The notes beneath the pieces were generated by a model that ran no database searches, was not told where the DNA came from, and saw only the letters and a program-made list of their open reading frames with translations. From Pseudobdellovibrionaceae bacterium (GTDB lineage Bacteria; Bdellovibrionota; Bdellovibrionia; Bdellovibrionales; Bdellovibrionaceae): a stretch of 64,000 nucleotides of DNA. This document shows positions 10,133 to 19,851 of the stretch, piece by piece. Numbering within the stretch: position 1 is the stretch's first letter; the number at the start of each line of letters is the position of its first letter. The translations under genes and the position numbers were made by a program. The stretch spans positions 558,001 through 622,000 of the forward strand of contig JAHBUS010000001.1 in assembly GCA_019637955.1 (NCBI GenBank). The letters are read 5' to 3'.

Positions 10133-11281
10133 ATGCGCAAACTGGCTTGCATGCTCATCCTCTTGCTAGCTCCGTTCGCGGCTCGCGCCCAAATGGCGAG
10201 TTGCGCCTCGGTCTATTCGCGGCTCGATTCGCAGCGCTGGCTCGACCTGCGCCTGGAATCGGTCCGCCAAACTCGCACCCAAGACATTCGAAAGACCACC
10301 ATCCTCACGCCATCGGCCGTCGTCGTCTCCGCGCCCACTCGCAACGCCCTTTTGCAAGACGTGATTTACCAGAGAAACATCGTCGAAGCCTCCGAGTACT
10401 CGCGCCTGATGAGCGACAAGCTCTTTCAAGTGAAATACTTGACCCGGGTCGCCCCTCAGACCGCCGGTTACTTTCCGAAAACGATGGGTCTGCGCGAGTT
10501 CTTGCGCCAGCACCACTTGCTAAGCGCCAACGGACAGCTCCAACCGAACTCGGCCGCCGCGATCGTCAAAACTTTTGAGCGCGCCTTTCCGTCGGGCGCC
10601 GTCGTGAAGCCCGTCGCCGGTTACAACACGGGCGGCAAAGGTTTTTTCATCAACGAAAGCGCGGCGCTCGCTCAGGAGCTCGTGTCGATGCCGCAGAAGT
10701 TTCTCGGCTCAAGCCGCTCGTTTTTGTTCGCGAGTCCTGAATTGGGTCTGGCCTCGGGCGAAGGTTGGATCGTGCAGGAACTCTTGCGCGCCCGCGTGCA
10801 GGGCCGTCCCGTCGACGGCAAGCCTCCCGAGTACCGCGTTCACACCTTCGAGGGAAAAGTGGTTTCAAGCGCCACCGAATCACGCTGGTTGGTGGCGGGA
10901 GAAAAAAACTTTCCGGAAGTGGACGCTTACGTCCAGAAATTTTTAAACCTCATCCCTGCGGCTCACCTGAAACGTCAGGCTTGGGGCTTGGATGTGGTGC
11001 AGTTAGGTCCAAACGACTTCCGCATTATCGAGATCAACACCAACCGCGGGCAGCCCATCCAGTGGAGCGGCTACCTTCTCTCGAGCCTGCAGTTGGGCGC
11101 GCACGTCCGTCACTGGGAACAAGTCGGGGCCTTCAAGTTGGAAGGCCCCTTTGCTGATGTTTTTAGGCGCAATCGCGCCAACCTCGAGAGCTGGGTCCGC
11201 AAGGAAGGACGCGACACCGTGCTCGAGGATTTGCGTATCAATGACCCGCTACTCGCTCGTGAGGTGGAAAATGAAATCTAA
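10133..11281 (+). CDS. Exported ATP-grasp-like protein
   Basis: A 382-residue protein with a clear signal peptide (MRKLACMLILLLAPFAARA). The mature domain resembles the ATP-grasp fold: VVKPVAGYNTGGKGFF (the nucleotide-binding lysine strand and glycine loop), WIVQELL, YRVHTFEGKVV, then GLDVV and RIIEINTNRGQPIQWS, which fits the acidic metal-binding strand E-x-N. ATP-grasp enzymes join a carboxylate to an amine or thiol using ATP and normally work in the cytoplasm, so the signal peptide is odd. First gene of a four-gene operon of exported proteins. It overlaps the next gene by 11 bases. Substrate unknown. Confidence 0.65.
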   Translation: MRKLACMLILLLAPFAARAQMASCASVYSRLDSQRWLDLRLESVRQTRTQDIRKTTILTPSAVVVSAPTRNALLQDVIYQRNIVEASEYSRLMSDKLFQVKYLTRVAPQTAGYFPKTMGLREFLRQHHLLSANGQLQPNSAAAIVKTFERAFPSGAVVKPVAGYNTGGKGFFINESAALAQELVSMPQKFLGSSRSFLFASPELGLASGEGWIVQELLRARVQGRPVDGKPPEYRVHTFEGKVVSSATESRWLVAGEKNFPEVDAYVQKFLNLIPAAHLKRQAWGLDVVQLGPNDFRIIEINTNRGQPIQWSGYLLSSLQLGAHVRHWEQVGAFKLEGPFADVFRRNRANLESWVRKEGRDTVLEDLRINDPLLAREVENEI

Positions 11282-13514
11282 AACTCTGTTGATGGCGCTC
11301 GGCGCACTGGTCCTGAGCGCGCCCAACATGGCTCTCGCGGCCCCCTTGTGCGCGCAGGTTCTCAAGGCCGTCGGCGCGACGGCCGAAAGTTCCGCGGCGC
11401 GCCCCACCTACGAAAGCGCTTTGCGATTCGACGCCCAAGGTTTGATCTTCGCGCGCGGCGCCCGTGGCCAAGGCCAGGAAGTTCAATTTGGATTTGAATC
11501 CGAATACACGGCGGCCGAACTCGGTCCGATGACCAAATTCTACGGTCCCGATGCGGCCACCTCAGGAATCTCGGCGGCCGCTTGGCGTGCGATGCCCGTC
11601 GACGCGCGTCTGTCTTGGGTGCAAGAGAAACTCAAATCCATTCCGTATGGATCTAAAGACACCGTTCTCGTGCGCCTCGATCAAAACGCCGAACTCGCGT
11701 TCTTGCCTTCGAAGCTGATCAAGGACGATACCGGCAACGTCGAGATCATCGTGGCTCCCGTTTCGAGATTTGAAACTTGGAAGCAGCAAGTTCAATGGAT
11801 CAACCGCAACTTGGGCGTCGGGTCGATGCAGGCCATGGTCAGTCAGCCCCGTGACACCTTCTTCACGCGCGGTTCGACGATCGAGTCCAGCAGTGTGACC
11901 TATAAAGAGAATCTCGGCTTCTTCAATTTTTTGCACGAGAGCGATGCCTTGGACCGCATGGCCCGCGGCGCCGAGAAGTTCCGCTTGGACCCGAGCAAAG
12001 ACGTCATGCGCCCCTTCCTGCATCCCTACTTGGGTCCCATGATTGAATTCCGCCACAAGCGCATGCGCAAGGCGATGTTCGAACACGCCCGGGGCAAAGA
12101 TCTCGAACAAGAAACGCTCGAAGCCATCGTCAGGCGCGAGCAGTCCTTTAAATATATCGGCTCCACCGCCTACCGTCCCGACATCGGCGCCCCCACGCGC
12201 GTGTCCCAGGAAGTGCGCGACGCCCATAAAGACGAGGCGGTTTTGATCGAACGCGTGACCCGCTCGCTCCTGCATATGCAAGAAGGGCGCACCGCGTTTT
12301 TGCGCGCCTCGGACATTAAGCCGTTCGACAGCGAAGCTAAATTCAACAGCCTCACGCCCGCGGTCCAGTCTTTTTTGAAAACGGTTTTTCCGCACAAAGC
12401 TCCATCACGCGTGCAAGAGTTCGAAAACGCCCTTTTCGTGCACGAGACTTACCGCAACTTTGCGTACCCGCTTCATGACTTCCGTCCTTGGCTGTCGTTC
12501 ATGAACCGCATGGACCTCGTCAAAACCGTGGAGTCGGCGCAAGGGGCTTACGTGCAAAAACTCGAGTCTCTGGCCGCGCGCCTGGAGCGCGGCGAGATCG
12601 GCAAAGATCAAGCGTCGCGCGAAGCGCAAGGCGCGTTGGCCGAGTTCGCTCCCGCGAGCCGCCTGAGCGAGGCCTTTCAGGCGTATGAAGCCAAGTTGAT
12701 CCGCGAAGCTCGAGAAAACCGCCCGACCGGCGAGCGTCTCGACGCCGCCGCCCGCGCGTTCGAATCAAGACTGGGGATGATGACCCAAAAGTGGGCCGAG
12801 AACACCGCGCTCGTGTCCGGCGTGCGCTTTCGTCACAAAGACGAGAATCAGAAAAATCTCGCCGACCGTCGCCTTCTCGTGGTCTCAACGCACGGCCTCT
12901 CCAACGCGCAAAAAGACCAACTCAAAACCGACTACCTCAATCTGCTCACGGGCGGAACGGTTTCGTTTCCGCTCAAAGAACGCGCCACGCATATGCTCGT
13001 CCGGTTTGACGACACGATTTACAATTTCGGCTTCTGGCCTGTTCCGCAGTTTCCGAAATTTCGCGTGAGCGAATACCAACTCCCGAGCGCCGAGCGTTTG
13101 GAGTCGGTGGTCTTGCTCTCGAAAGTCGAAGACACTCGGCTGCTCCGCTACATCCGCGAGATCCGCGAAGACCGCCCCCAGGTCTTGGGCCGCTTCAACT
13201 ACCAGGGCGATGCGCGGGCCCGCGGACAAATCAACGACAACCGAAGTCTCGGCTGCGGTCATAACTGTACGACGTGGATCGCGAGCGCTCCCATCGGGGC
13301 TCGCGGCGAGACGCTGCTCAACCTCTTGCAAGCCGAGGGCGCCGTCCCTTGGATCGCCCAGAACCCGGGATGGTTCACGTCGTGGCTGACCGCCAGCGCA
13401 CCCAGCGAGCGCGTGCCGCTCTTGGTGTACTTCACCGATCGACCTTTGCAGCAAGCTCTCGAGAGCAAGGTGCGATCGAACCAAATTTTCGAATGGGATT
13501 TCAATCGACGCTAG
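11271..13514 (+). CDS. Exported protein, amidoligase-like and permuted papain-like
   Basis: A 747-residue exported protein (signal peptide MKSKTLLMALGALVLSAPNMALA). The N-terminal half shows FGFESEYT (a GxExE pattern), VEIIVAPVSRFETWK and PMIEFRHKR in the order seen in carboxylate-amine ligases of the amidoligase_2 type. A helical middle follows. The C-terminal part has ATHMLVRFDDTIYNFG and, later, CGHNCTTWIASAP. His-then-Cys order fits a circularly permuted papain-like fold (Lnb/LRAT/NlpC relatives). Both assignments are motif-level and tentative. It overlaps the ATP-grasp-like gene by 11 bases and abuts the next start directly. Confidence 0.5.
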   Translation: MKSKTLLMALGALVLSAPNMALAAPLCAQVLKAVGATAESSAARPTYESALRFDAQGLIFARGARGQGQEVQFGFESEYTAAELGPMTKFYGPDAATSGISAAAWRAMPVDARLSWVQEKLKSIPYGSKDTVLVRLDQNAELAFLPSKLIKDDTGNVEIIVAPVSRFETWKQQVQWINRNLGVGSMQAMVSQPRDTFFTRGSTIESSSVTYKENLGFFNFLHESDALDRMARGAEKFRLDPSKDVMRPFLHPYLGPMIEFRHKRMRKAMFEHARGKDLEQETLEAIVRREQSFKYIGSTAYRPDIGAPTRVSQEVRDAHKDEAVLIERVTRSLLHMQEGRTAFLRASDIKPFDSEAKFNSLTPAVQSFLKTVFPHKAPSRVQEFENALFVHETYRNFAYPLHDFRPWLSFMNRMDLVKTVESAQGAYVQKLESLAARLERGEIGKDQASREAQGALAEFAPASRLSEAFQAYEAKLIREARENRPTGERLDAAARAFESRLGMMTQKWAENTALVSGVRFRHKDENQKNLADRRLLVVSTHGLSNAQKDQLKTDYLNLLTGGTVSFPLKERATHMLVRFDDTIYNFGFWPVPQFPKFRVSEYQLPSAERLESVVLLSKVEDTRLLRYIREIREDRPQVLGRFNYQGDARARGQINDNRSLGCGHNCTTWIASAPIGARGETLLNLLQAEGAVPWIAQNPGWFTSWLTASAPSERVPLLVYFTDRPLQQALESKVRSNQIFEWDFNRR

Positions 13515-15974
13515 ATGAAAACACTCGCCGCGCTCCTCCTTATTTTAACGTCGCTCACGGCCCGGGCTCAAGACCTGGGTCTTGTGCGTTCGGTGGAGAC
13601 CGACGGACGGCGCGTGTCTTTGCAAACGGCGCAAGGGGCGGTCACCTTCGACCCCGCCCTGCATTTTGAGGCCGCGGTCGATGAGATCTCGGCGCTGCTC
13701 AGCCAACAACCCTCGCCAAGCCAGGTTTTGCAGGGCGCCGACGTTCAGCTGTCGCTCAGCGATTTTCAAAAACTCGCGCACCTCTGGCCCGAGATGGCGC
13801 TCAAAGCGAACTGGAGTTCGCGCCTTTCGCTCGTCCAGTCGGACAGAGCCACGGTGTCTCTCAAAATTCTCAAGGGGCTTTTGCGCCTCAAGCCAACCCC
13901 GTCTCTGAACGGCGCCGAAAAAATCTGGCTCGGCTGCGACGAAGCGCTCGATCACTGTTTGGGAATGACGGCAACGGTGTCCAACCCCAATTTGCTGACG
14001 GCGATGCCCACCCTCGAAGAGTCCCGACTCTTTCGCGGACTGGCGCCGGCGGATCTGCGAGCGCGGACCGCGCGCCTGACGGTGCAAGATCTTGCGTCGG
14101 CCTTTGAACGCGCCCTCTTTCCGGCCGAGATGTCTCGCTGGATGGCGCTAAAACTTTTGTCGCGCCGTCATGCCATCTTGGAGCGCTCAGGCGCCAATCC
14201 TCATTTGGCCGCCGTGATGGCGATGAACGATGGCGGTTTCCGCCGCGGTCAGTTGATCGAACCGCCCGAGGGGTTCGAAGCGGATCTGACCCTTCAGCAT
14301 TTGGAGGCGCGCCTGCAAGGTTTTCTGGCGAGCCGCCTGGACGAGGTGCAGAAGCTGGCCGAATTCGTTCTTTCAAATTTTCCGTACATGACGATTGAGC
14401 CCGGAAAATCCTTCGGCAACTGGTCGCTCGCCCCGGGGTTCATGATTCGGGTGAAGCGCCGGATCGAAAAGAATTTGCACGCCAAGACCGCGAGCGAACA
14501 GTACCGGGTGGAAGACGCCCTTGAGGTTTTTGCCTCGGTCTCCTTTGGCCCTCACGCCGAACGCGGATTTTTTAGCGTCTCGGCGGGGGTTGGCCCCGCG
14601 TATGTGCGCCGGTACTCGCGCGTGCACATGGCCGCCACCGAGGAACAGGCGCGCACCGGTTACTGGCGCATTTCAAAAGAACTTCTCATGGGCCGAAGCC
14701 TCGCCGATCTCGAGCCGCGCGAGCGCCTCACCGTTCAGAGCGGCTTTTTGGCGAATTCGAGCCTGAACGGAAATATCCGGGTGCTCGGCCAGTCGCGAGT
14801 GCGCCCGCAAGCTTGGATCATGGGCAACCACCAGTGGCTTTCATTGAGCCATCTTTACCGCGCGCACGACGGCGATCTTTACTTGGGGCGAGGATCTTCG
14901 CGGGGTTTTGAGATCAGCGCCCAGGCTTTTTGGCGCATCATCAGCAAAATCGCGCGCATTCCCGTGCTGAACTTCCGACGTTCCTGGATGGAGGCGACCA
15001 ACGACGTTTACAAAATCACCAACGAGAACCTCGCGTCCTCGTCGGAATTGTCGGTCAAAATTCGCGAGGCCCTCCAAGGCTCAAACTCGCCGATGCCGGC
15101 CGAAGTGCCGCTCGTTCATGCCGAAGCGGATTATAAAATGGGCGACTTCTGGCTGGATTGGGGCTTCGGCAACCGCGACGAGCGCCGCTGGTCGGGACGC
15201 TTGAGCGCGATGCCGCCTCGTGAGGGCGCCAGCTGGCTCCAAGCAGGACAGAACTTTTTGCTCTTTGAAAAAACCGAAACCGATCAAAGCCGCTGGAGCA
15301 TTTCGCCGAAACCCAAGTTCGAACGCTGCTCGTACTGGGCGGCTCTGGCCACCCCCAGCGGTCAAAATGCGTCACGGCTGACGGCCGAGGACATTCGTGA
15401 AAGCAGTCTTAAAATCTCGTGCGCGTCGCGCTTCGAGGGGTCCCACCGTTTCGATGAAACCCTCGCCCGCCGTCTCGCCCGCAAGCTTCACCTCCCCGAC
15501 GAGATCGCGGGACAACTTTGGGATCAAAAGATGGCCCGCCTGAACACGGATCTGCACTGGAGCCTCACCGTGGGCCACGCGGACCTCGCGCCTCTCTTCG
15601 CCGCGAAACCGACCGGCTGGATTCAGAGCTTCGCGAGCGAGATCGAGGCCCGACGAAACTCATCCCGCGACGAACCCTTCGACGTTTCGCAGGAGCGGCT
15701 GCTCTTGCGAACCGCGCTCACGACGCTGTTTTCGATTCGCGAACCCGCCAAACGCCTCGAGTTTTTTTTCGAGTGGCTCAGCGACAGCGGCGCGCGCGAC
15801 CTGTTTTTGGAGGCGTTCTTGAAACGCAGCCAGAATCATCAAATTGAAGTCAAACGATGGACGGCAGGCCACGACGACCGCCGCCTGGTCTTTCAGGAAT
15901 TCAAACTTGGAGAAGTTCCCGCAACATCGACGTTCGAACTTCTGGAAGAGAGGGACAAATGGTTCGGTCACTAA
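13515..15974 (+). CDS. Large exported protein of unknown function
   Basis: An 819-residue protein with signal peptide MKTLAALLLILTSLTARA. I do not recognise a domain. The sequence is a mix of helical stretches and strands rich in Trp and Arg, with a few cysteines (WLGCDEALDHCLG and a later pair around ERCSYWAAL and LKISCASRF), which would be disulphide-bonded in the periplasm. The ATG begins at the base after the preceding stop, and the gene overlaps the following one by 16 bases. It is therefore co-translated with the ATP-grasp-like and amidoligase-like genes and may be their partner. Confidence 0.75.
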   Translation: MKTLAALLLILTSLTARAQDLGLVRSVETDGRRVSLQTAQGAVTFDPALHFEAAVDEISALLSQQPSPSQVLQGADVQLSLSDFQKLAHLWPEMALKANWSSRLSLVQSDRATVSLKILKGLLRLKPTPSLNGAEKIWLGCDEALDHCLGMTATVSNPNLLTAMPTLEESRLFRGLAPADLRARTARLTVQDLASAFERALFPAEMSRWMALKLLSRRHAILERSGANPHLAAVMAMNDGGFRRGQLIEPPEGFEADLTLQHLEARLQGFLASRLDEVQKLAEFVLSNFPYMTIEPGKSFGNWSLAPGFMIRVKRRIEKNLHAKTASEQYRVEDALEVFASVSFGPHAERGFFSVSAGVGPAYVRRYSRVHMAATEEQARTGYWRISKELLMGRSLADLEPRERLTVQSGFLANSSLNGNIRVLGQSRVRPQAWIMGNHQWLSLSHLYRAHDGDLYLGRGSSRGFEISAQAFWRIISKIARIPVLNFRRSWMEATNDVYKITNENLASSSELSVKIREALQGSNSPMPAEVPLVHAEADYKMGDFWLDWGFGNRDERRWSGRLSAMPPREGASWLQAGQNFLLFEKTETDQSRWSISPKPKFERCSYWAALATPSGQNASRLTAEDIRESSLKISCASRFEGSHRFDETLARRLARKLHLPDEIAGQLWDQKMARLNTDLHWSLTVGHADLAPLFAAKPTGWIQSFASEIEARRNSSRDEPFDVSQERLLLRTALTTLFSIREPAKRLEFFFEWLSDSGARDLFLEAFLKRSQNHQIEVKRWTAGHDDRRLVFQEFKLGEVPATSTFELLEERDKWFGH

Positions 15975-16486
15975 AACTCGTCATCGCGGCGGCTCTGCTC
16001 GCCGCCCCGGCCGCGCAGGCGAAAACTTGGGCTTACAAGTTTCAGATTCAACCCGTGTTCGGCGTGAACGCCTCGTGCACGCAAGGGGGCGAGAAAGAAC
16101 TCAGCCAGATCCGCCTGTACTTTGACGATGCCGTCGTCAACTCACGCGCGGTCACCCCCACCCTGGTCAAGCTCACGGTCTGCCTTTTGGGCGGCGGCTA
16201 CGTGAAGGATTTTTTCACGCTTCCGATTCCGTCCGAAGTCTTAAAACCCGCGGCGGCGCTGCGCACGCAGACCGTTTCGGTCCAACACGAAAACTTCGAT
16301 GCCGTTGAAATGACGCGTTTATCTTCGCAGAGCCTGAAGCTTCGCTTTCTCAAACGAGGGGCGCCGTGGGCGGTGATCGACGAGCTGATCGTGGATTTCG
16401 ATGCACGCAAAAAAATGCAAGGCTTGCGGCTTCATCTCGTGAAGCAGAACAAATGGATCAGCGCGTCCTTGCGTTTGGTGGAGTGA
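15959..16486 (+). CDS. Exported protein of unknown function, last gene of the operon
   Basis: A 175-residue protein with signal peptide MVRSLKLVIAAALLAAPAAQA, then a probably all-beta domain (TWAYKFQIQPVFGVNASC, RLYFDDAVVNS, LVKLTVCLLGGGY, LRLHLVKQNKW). Two cysteines could pair. The ATG chosen opens the signal peptide and lies inside the preceding gene (16-base overlap). I know no family for it. It ends 16 bases before a convergent gene. Confidence 0.7.
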   Translation: MVRSLKLVIAAALLAAPAAQAKTWAYKFQIQPVFGVNASCTQGGEKELSQIRLYFDDAVVNSRAVTPTLVKLTVCLLGGGYVKDFFTLPIPSEVLKPAAALRTQTVSVQHENFDAVEMTRLSSQSLKLRFLKRGAPWAVIDELIVDFDARKKMQGLRLHLVKQNKWISASLRLVE

Positions 16487-18215: not shown

Positions 18216-18297
18216 CCGGATCAACGAAAGACCAGAATTCGCGCCCGCTCCTTGAGCATTCCCCCTCTTGGCGTCCCGCTTTGATACACTGGGGACA

Positions 18298-19851
18298 ATG
18301 GCCTCAGAAGTCTCCCGATCCCAAAGCCGCGAACTGACCGACTTGCAGGGTGAGTACACCCGCAAACGCAAGGAGCTTGTGGAGTCGCGCGAAAACGAAC
18401 TCGCCGACTTGAAGCAGACCTACAATCAGCGCGAAGCCGACGTTCGCTCGCAGGGCGAGGCCGCGATCAACCATATCAAGAAATCGAGCAACGAAACCAT
18501 CGCCAAGGTCCGCGAAGACCAATCGGGCCGTGTCGACAACTTGCAGGAACAAAACCGCAAGAGCATGGACTCGCTCAAAAAGTACGCGCGCAATTCGCAA
18601 GAGGCCTACGGCGAGCAGATCCAATCGGCCGAAGAAAACGCCCGCGAGCGTCTTGAGCGCGTCGTGGCCAACGAGGAAAAGGCTCGGAGCCGGATCCAAA
18701 AGGACACTCAGCGATACTCGGAAACCAGCGCCAATTCGGTCAAACGCCTGCAAGAAGAGCAGCGTGCCCAGTACGAAAAGATCACCGAGCAAAATCAGGC
18801 CGAGCGCCAAAAAGCGCATGAAAAAGGCCAAACCGAGCTGCAAAAAATCAATGAGAGCTACCGTAAGAATGCCGAACAGGCCACCACGATCCGTGAGGAC
18901 CTTCTGCGCAAAAGTAAGGCCGACGTGTCCCAGCAGATCGGCCAGCTCAAAGAGCGCAATCAAGCCGCCATCGAAAAAGAGAAAATCCGCGGCGAACGCC
19001 TCACCAACGACACCCGGCTGCGCTACGAAGAGGAGATCGGCCGCCAAAACGATCGCGGCAAGCAAAAAGTCGCCTCGCTGCAAGCCGAAAACGCCAACGA
19101 TCTCGAGTCGATCAAGACTCGCGGCGAAGAGCGCAAAACCAAAGTGCGCGGCGAGTACGAGAAGCAGATCGTGCAGACTCACGAGATGGGACAGCGGCGC
19201 ATTCAGGAATCTCAAGACAAAACCAATCGCGACGAGCAACGCATTGAGGGCGAGCACCAGAATGCCCTGAAGCGCGAACAGGCGCAGTACGAAAAGCGCC
19301 GTCAGGAAATGGCCGACACGTACCAGAACCAGTTCGAGAAAAACGGCGACGTTTACCACAAGAGTTTGGCCAAACAGAATGATCAGTTTCAATCGCACTA
19401 CCGAAAGAACGCCCAGGCCCAAAACGAGTCGCTCAATATTCAAAACGAGATGTACCACAAGCAGCTGGCCAACTTGAAAGTCGGCTTGGCCAAGAAGGTC
19501 GATCAGTATGACGAGCGCAAAGACGACCCCTTCTACAAGATTCAAGACCGCGACACGCGCGTGATCGAAATGCCCGATGCGTACATCCTGCGCGCCTACG
19601 TCCCCAAACACGAGACCGAGAACGTGAAGGTCAAAGTCAAAGGCGACAAGGCCATGGTGAGCGGAACGCGTGCGTTTAAAGATGAAGTCGAAGAAAACGG
19701 CCGTAAGGTTTCGACCAACTCGTACCAAACCTTCCGCGAAGAGATCGCGCTGGAGAAACCCGTCTCCACCGAAGGCGTCACGCAACAACGCGAAGGTGAT
19801 TACCTTCGCGTCTTTATTCCCAAGTTGTCGTCATTTAGCAAAAAAGTATGA
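18298..19851 (+). CDS. Long coiled-coil protein with C-terminal HSP20-like domain
   Basis: A 517-residue protein. Residues about 5-400 are one highly charged helical rod (Glu/Lys/Arg/Gln with repeated EK, QER and ENA patterns) typical of an extended coiled coil. The last 110 residues resemble a small heat-shock (alpha-crystallin) domain: VIEMPDAYILRAYVPKHE, VKVKVKGDKAMVSGTR, then YQTFREEIALEKPV and DYLRVFIPK. HSP20 domains bind unfolded clients as dimers; the coiled coil would tether or multimerise them. No signal peptide or membrane segment. This combination is unusual. It stands alone in the plus direction. Confidence 0.75.
   Translation: MASEVSRSQSRELTDLQGEYTRKRKELVESRENELADLKQTYNQREADVRSQGEAAINHIKKSSNETIAKVREDQSGRVDNLQEQNRKSMDSLKKYARNSQEAYGEQIQSAEENARERLERVVANEEKARSRIQKDTQRYSETSANSVKRLQEEQRAQYEKITEQNQAERQKAHEKGQTELQKINESYRKNAEQATTIREDLLRKSKADVSQQIGQLKERNQAAIEKEKIRGERLTNDTRLRYEEEIGRQNDRGKQKVASLQAENANDLESIKTRGEERKTKVRGEYEKQIVQTHEMGQRRIQESQDKTNRDEQRIEGEHQNALKREQAQYEKRRQEMADTYQNQFEKNGDVYHKSLAKQNDQFQSHYRKNAQAQNESLNIQNEMYHKQLANLKVGLAKKVDQYDERKDDPFYKIQDRDTRVIEMPDAYILRAYVPKHETENVKVKVKGDKAMVSGTRAFKDEVEENGRKVSTNSYQTFREEIALEKPVSTEGVTQQREGDYLRVFIPKLSSFSKKV

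Follow-up and report, generated by a model that had tools for sequence, protein, structure and literature searches.

An operon of four exported proteins with an ATP-grasp member and a putative amidoligase-like member in Bdellovibrionota

Introduction

Genes for ATP-grasp proteins, glutamine-synthetase-like ligases and peptidases are reportedly often adjacent or fused, and the systems that they encode are said to be cytoplasmic. Here we describe a four-gene operon (genes A to D) in a stretch of 64,000 nucleotides from a Pseudobdellovibrionaceae bacterium (assembly GCA_019637955.1, contig JAHBUS010000001.1, positions 558,001 to 622,000 of the forward strand; hereafter the window), in which an ATP-grasp protein, a protein with a distant amidoligase-like domain and two further proteins all carry Sec-like signal sequences. 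From sequence comparison and structure modeling, we tentatively propose, with somewhat less than even confidence, that the operon encodes an extracytoplasmic module that would form and break amide bonds.

The locus resembles several described systems but matches none of them. Compared with the ATP-grasp/amidoligase/peptidase networks of Iyer et al. 2009, the enzymes of the window have Sec signals and belong to families too diverged for Pfam. Protein B keeps the motif order of Amidoligase_2 (PF12224), namely GxExE, EI..P, Q and ExR, and a true PF12224 member is adjacent in the related genome G008; unlike that family, B lies below detection, has a longer C-terminal half and is fused to an NlpC/P60 domain. 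With the R2K-clade ATP-grasp proteins (CDC123 and relatives; PMC4431377), protein A has in common that Cdc123 is among its structural matches, but A scores below the R2K cut-offs and the pair of lysines is not retained among the relatives of A. The second domain of B shares the His-before-Cys order and the NCTT/NCTS signature with Lnb/DUF4105 (PMC12994826), whereas it is unmatched in the window protein and fused to an amidoligase-like domain. The rlo operon of Pseudomonas (PMC12239564) also links an exported peptidase with an ATP-grasp gene, but its ATP-grasp protein, RloC, is predicted to be cytosolic, whereas that of the window is itself exported. A search limited to the papers available to us returned none describing exported amidoligases in Bdellovibrio.

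Results

Four adjoining genes encode proteins with Sec-type signals

An initial annotation, generated by a model from the sequence and its open reading frames, had reported four plus-strand genes separated by an 11-base overlap (A/B), a gap of 0 (B/C) and a 16-base overlap (C/D). Its coordinates, strand, spacing and quoted motifs were exact on recheck. The features are as follows.

10133-11281, plus strand: gene A, 382 aa, exported ATP-grasp protein; signal at about residues 1-19; K159, E233, R235, R251, D287 and E300-x-N302 intact
10133-10189, plus strand: Sec signal peptide of A, from inspection and hydrophobicity control
11271-13514, plus strand: gene B, 747 aa, exported, two domains; signal at about residues 1-23
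11478-12740, plus strand: putative amidoligase-like (glutamine-synthetase-like COOH-NH2 ligase) domain of B; invariant E76xE78, E158, Q187, R302 and E314xR316
12828-13511, plus strand: permuted NlpC/P60 (Lnb_N/DUF4105-like) domain of B; His574 and Cys666 (HNCTTW)
13515-15974, plus strand: gene C, 819 aa, exported; conserved Cys 141, 148, 605 and 636; signal at about residues 1-18
15959-16486, plus strand: gene D, 175 aa, exported; conserved Cys 40 and 75; signal at about residues 1-21

The genes are real, because homologues occur in other genomes of the class and the same order is found in G008. A promoter and terminator scan of the operon gave signals at chance level, so that the operon is assigned from the close spacing of the genes and the conservation of their order.

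Signal peptides were judged from the sequence by inspection and by a plain hydrophobicity test, with cytosolic proteins of the same loci as controls. All four window proteins have a Sec signal, as the initial annotation had claimed, with a cleavage motif, and cleavage is predicted between MRKLACMLILLLAPFAARA and Q in A, MKSKTLLMALGALVLSAPNMALA and A in B, MKTLAALLLILTSLTARA and Q in C, and MVRSLKLVIAAALLAAPAAQA and K in D. The hydrophobicity test was positive for none of 42 cytosolic controls, compared with 4/4 C, 16/31 A and 24/40 B relatives; start-codon extension lowers the counts for A and B relatives. By these criteria signals are present in the copies of the window, G008, G072 and G174 and absent from those of locus L069 and three Bdellovibrio genomes (G and L numbers are our labels for genomes and loci; many of the relatives are metagenome assemblies). 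Judged by these signals, export of the module is real and recurrent across the group. We also considered that the window proteins might be lipoproteins and rejected this, as most relatives have no lipobox around the Cys that follows the signal.

Protein A is an ATP-grasp protein with an intact Mg-ATP site

An AlphaFold model of A, built from a 10-sequence alignment, reached pLDDT 77.6 and pTM 0.79. All 50 of its best fold matches in the PDB were ATP-grasp proteins, including PsnB (E=2.4e-6), ArgX, Ddl, CDC123 and tubulin tyrosine ligase (TTL). The Mg-ATP residues listed above are all present, and the catalytic residues are likewise intact in the exported copies of G008, G098, G174 and G072 and in the cytosolic copies. 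No curated ATP-grasp model in Pfam or NCBIfam matched A, although such a match is a convenience of detection and not a defining property; relatives of A gave weak sub-threshold matches led by YheCD, R2K_2, ATPgrasp_ST and R2K_3. Mature A contains one cysteine. The fold matches and the intact residues support the assignment of A as an ATP-grasp protein, which agrees with the initial annotation.

Protein B combines a distant amidoligase-like domain with a permuted NlpC/P60 domain

Residues ~70-490 of B define a family with members in 31 genera of the phylum (43 of 369 genomes). Seven residues of this domain (E76, E78, E158, Q187, R302, E314, R316) are invariant across 36-38 aligned relatives, and the GxExE / E / Q / ExR pattern of Amidoligase_2 is present. 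In profile-profile comparison with an Amidoligase_2 set, the GxExE, EI..P, Q and ExR columns each paired with their own counterpart, with E=3e-4 (local) and 1.7e-5 (global), compared with 0.06-0.97 for unrelated control pairs. PF12224 itself matched neither B nor its relatives, the more divergent of which matched no amidoligase Pfam model, and genome G000 contained no PF12224 match at all. No B relatives were found in plasmids, phages or viral contigs. The conserved motifs and the profile match suggest that domain 1 is a distant amidoligase-like domain.

Residues ~520-747 form a permuted NlpC/P60 domain that is Lnb_N/DUF4105-like. Lnb_N was matched by one aligned relative of B only (2.6e-4), and the window's own domain was unmatched. 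Of 12 fused domains, 11 have the His574/Cys666 pair, and the remaining one has lost both residues together. In other genomes the NlpC/P60-like domain also occurs as stand-alone exported proteins.

Proteins C and D have conserved cysteines

As the initial annotation had noted, C and D match nothing recognized. Four cysteines are conserved in C and two in D, and they are invariant among the few relatives, which fits an oxidizing compartment. Wherever C was found in the class (four genomes), it adjoins A or B.

The genes are linked to each other and to amide-bond enzymes in several lineages

Among 144 genomes of the class, homologues of A were found in 21, of B in nine, of C in four and of D in two. 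The complete set is present in 2/144, with different flanks. Besides the window, it was found in G008, a different genus of the same family, where the A-B-C-D order is repeated and A and B are separated by a gene for an exported Amidoligase_2 protein (1.3e-17). In G098, A is divergent from C-D, and G038 has B-C. An exported fusion of Amidoligase_2 with an R2K ATP-grasp domain adjoins A in G072, and in G174 (L135:7923-11453) one exported protein of 1176 aa joins Amidoligase_2 to two ATP-grasp domains, one A-type and a second that is R2K-like; in the exported fusions it is this second domain that R2K_2 and R2K_3 match. Across the phylum PF12224 is present in 50/369 genomes, and about a dozen of 30 inspected loci have Sec or lipoprotein signals, the others having none.

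In 13 genomes, relatives of B adjoin CN_hydrolase, Peptidase_S58, free NlpC/P60-like (Bc) proteins or BPL_N. Many of these neighbors, but not all, bear signals, and they belong mostly to amide-bond enzyme families. At L143-L148, L152 and L058-L063 the same grouping recurs: a B-type amidoligase-like protein accompanied by Peptidase_S58, CN_hydrolase (one or two copies), free NlpC/P60-like proteins and BPL_N, many of them with signals.

The module has cytosolic counterparts and a degenerate exported sister clade

In L069 (Oligoflexia bacterium ACE_NR_PROT1), the A, amidoligase-like and NlpC/P60 domains are encoded as separate signal-less genes, in a cluster that also contains glycosyltransferases (GT28 and GT1), an ABC exporter, a histidine phosphatase and a deacetylase-like gene. 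Three Bdellovibrio genomes have a signal-less A in the same type of cluster without B. Because of these counterparts, the window operon is best read as the exported form of a module with cytosolic representatives as well. The initial annotation had counted homologues of A that were neither exported nor linked to the other genes as evidence against its proposal. Non-exported copies do exist, but the copy in L069 is paired with a B that likewise has no signal, which makes a functional link between A and B more credible. The Bdellovibrio copies (L039:9740-10669, L041:9266-10207, L046:1906-2838) stand with a deacetylase-like gene, glycosyltransferases and an ABC transporter, and their operons include an exported polysaccharide lyase where the contig reaches that far.

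Ten relatives of A from one family form a single clade (98/99) and are exported where the N-terminus is complete. In this clade K159 is replaced by R and N302 by V or I, and no amidoligase was seen alongside. The loss of Lys and Asn in a sister clade makes the intact sites of the window, G008, G098, G072 and G174 more telling. The loci of this clade are L038, L040, L043, L047-L049 and L051-L054, several of them near apparent heme-biosynthesis genes.

Genomic setting and other observations

The operon differs little from the window in GC content (0.595 and 0.578, respectively), although its GC at third codon positions (0.72-0.73) is higher than that of the flanking stretches (0.51-0.58, with flanks not split by gene). 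Upstream lie genes that by eye are Lnt-like, MutS2-like and acyl-CoA-dehydrogenase-like, without a functional hint. PDB sequence searches gave nothing usable, and a single-protein scan of genome contigs found zero. Downstream, positions 18268-19851 (plus strand) encode a long coiled-coil-like protein with a C-terminal segment that is Hsp20-like in appearance; an open frame of 494 aa on the minus strand (18304-19788) is probably a shadow of its repetitive coding sequence.

Many otherwise unrelated exported proteins share the motif C-x-x-[LIVM]-F directly after the signal cleavage site, among them ATP-grasp, amidoligase-like, NlpC/P60, S58 peptidase, ankyrin and alpha/beta hydrolase proteins (L063, L062, L058, L045, L050; L225:2123-3031, L227:1574-2647, L230:12166-12810, L238:1815-3671). 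It occurs in 18 of 351 signal-bearing open reading frames (ORFs) of the fetched loci, compared with 0.24% of background windows, an excess that is not a significance test because these very families guided the choice of loci and paralogues do not count as independent cases. In G070 it was found in 4/149 signal-bearing ORFs sampled genome-wide (expected 0.33), also outside the cluster. The window's own genome has no excess (1/143, a membrane protein). The motif could be an unrecognized N-terminal sorting or tethering tag.

Discussion

The proposal of an extracytoplasmic ligase/hydrolase system is drawn from the linked families, which mostly make, break or transfer amide bonds. A and domain 1 of B would be carboxylate-amine ligase folds that join molecules through amide bonds, and domain 2 of B would act on acyl or amide bonds, by cleavage or transfer, as a permuted NlpC/P60 enzyme. 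C and D may be dedicated periplasmic or outer partners, such as a scaffold, a substrate carrier or an acceptor. The module would most likely ligate or remodel peptide, amino-acid or acyl groups on a polymer of the cell surface or of the prey envelope. For a predator group, the most plausible guess would be that ATP is drawn from the invaded prey cell, which we offer as a hypothesis only.

Several results weigh against this proposal. To our knowledge, no ATP is known in the periplasm. A Pfam and NCBIfam scan of all four proteins gave zero families above cut-off. Against known ATP-grasp structures, A reaches modest TM-scores only (0.27-0.36), and it is therefore assigned to the superfamily rather than to one family. 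The hhalign probability of B against Amidoligase_2 is low to middling (9-61% by mode and direction), and AlphaFold, given two sequences, modeled domain 1 at pLDDT 43.5, a model that was not used. Because of these values and the lack of Pfam recognition, we call B amidoligase-like and not a PF12224 member; the amidoligase-like and papain-like motifs of the initial annotation stand as distant homology, carried by the invariant motifs, the profile match with its clean controls, the Lnb_N match of a relative and the His574/Cys666 pair. The tree of A, in which long branches meet, leaves unsettled whether the origin was exported or cytosolic, and the direction and number of moves. Finally, the ten-member clade shows, from its substituted residues, that export can accompany loss of ATP chemistry.

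This last point is an argument for an account that we consider unlikely, in which the folds are reused outside the cell without ATP. A and B would then bind ligands such as a sugar-peptide or a phosphoanhydride, or carry out ATP-independent acyl transfer, with the Lnb_N-like domain as the real catalyst. CN_hydrolase, a neighbor of B relatives, is a member of the superfamily that includes Lnt, which also counts in its favor. DUF4105/Lnb_N, the kin of B domain 2, is reported to be a lipoprotein N-acyltransferase in Bacteroides (PMC12994826). However, the A of the window still has its ATP/Mg site, as do four further exported lineages, and the invariance of the seven B residues over such divergent members would be unexpected if ATP or metal chemistry had gone. 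The initial annotation had raised such reuse, and it fits one exported sister clade but not the A of the window.

The proteins may instead pass beyond the periplasm and act as predation effectors in the prey cytoplasm or another ATP-rich host compartment. Bdellovibrionota include periplasmic predators, the full set is patchily distributed with different flanks, and the R2K ATP-grasp clade has been proposed to include secreted effectors (PMC4431377). We nevertheless regard this as quite unlikely, as Sec signals alone deliver to the periplasm, the conserved cysteines of C and D point to an oxidizing place, and nothing in the analysis marks this species as a predator. Upkeep of the bacterium's own surface, by peptidoglycan or lipoprotein tailoring independent of prey, would suit the company of the cytosolic counterpart (glycosyltransferases, a deacetylase-like gene and an ABC exporter) and of the Bdellovibrio A homologue (glycosyltransferases and an exported polysaccharide lyase). 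It appears very improbable to us, since the operon contains no peptidoglycan-specific domain and is absent from most relatives, and an ATP source would still be needed.

ATP-grasp and glutamine-synthetase-like ligases are textbook ATP-dependent cytoplasmic enzymes; here, by the signals and motifs described, they are exported with strictly conserved active sites, and in many Bdellovibrionota they are found together with amidases and peptidases. A bolder view, which we hold to be possible but on balance doubtful, is that Bdellovibrionota repeatedly exported intact ATP-grasp/amidoligase enzymes that would use ATP from prey to build amide bonds on molecules of the envelope or of the prey, that is, ATP-driven biosynthesis outside the cell. 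The operon thus poses the question of whether usable ATP is available outside these cells, in prey, or whether these folds run without it, and the cytosolic, exported-intact and exported-degenerate relatives form a natural comparison set.

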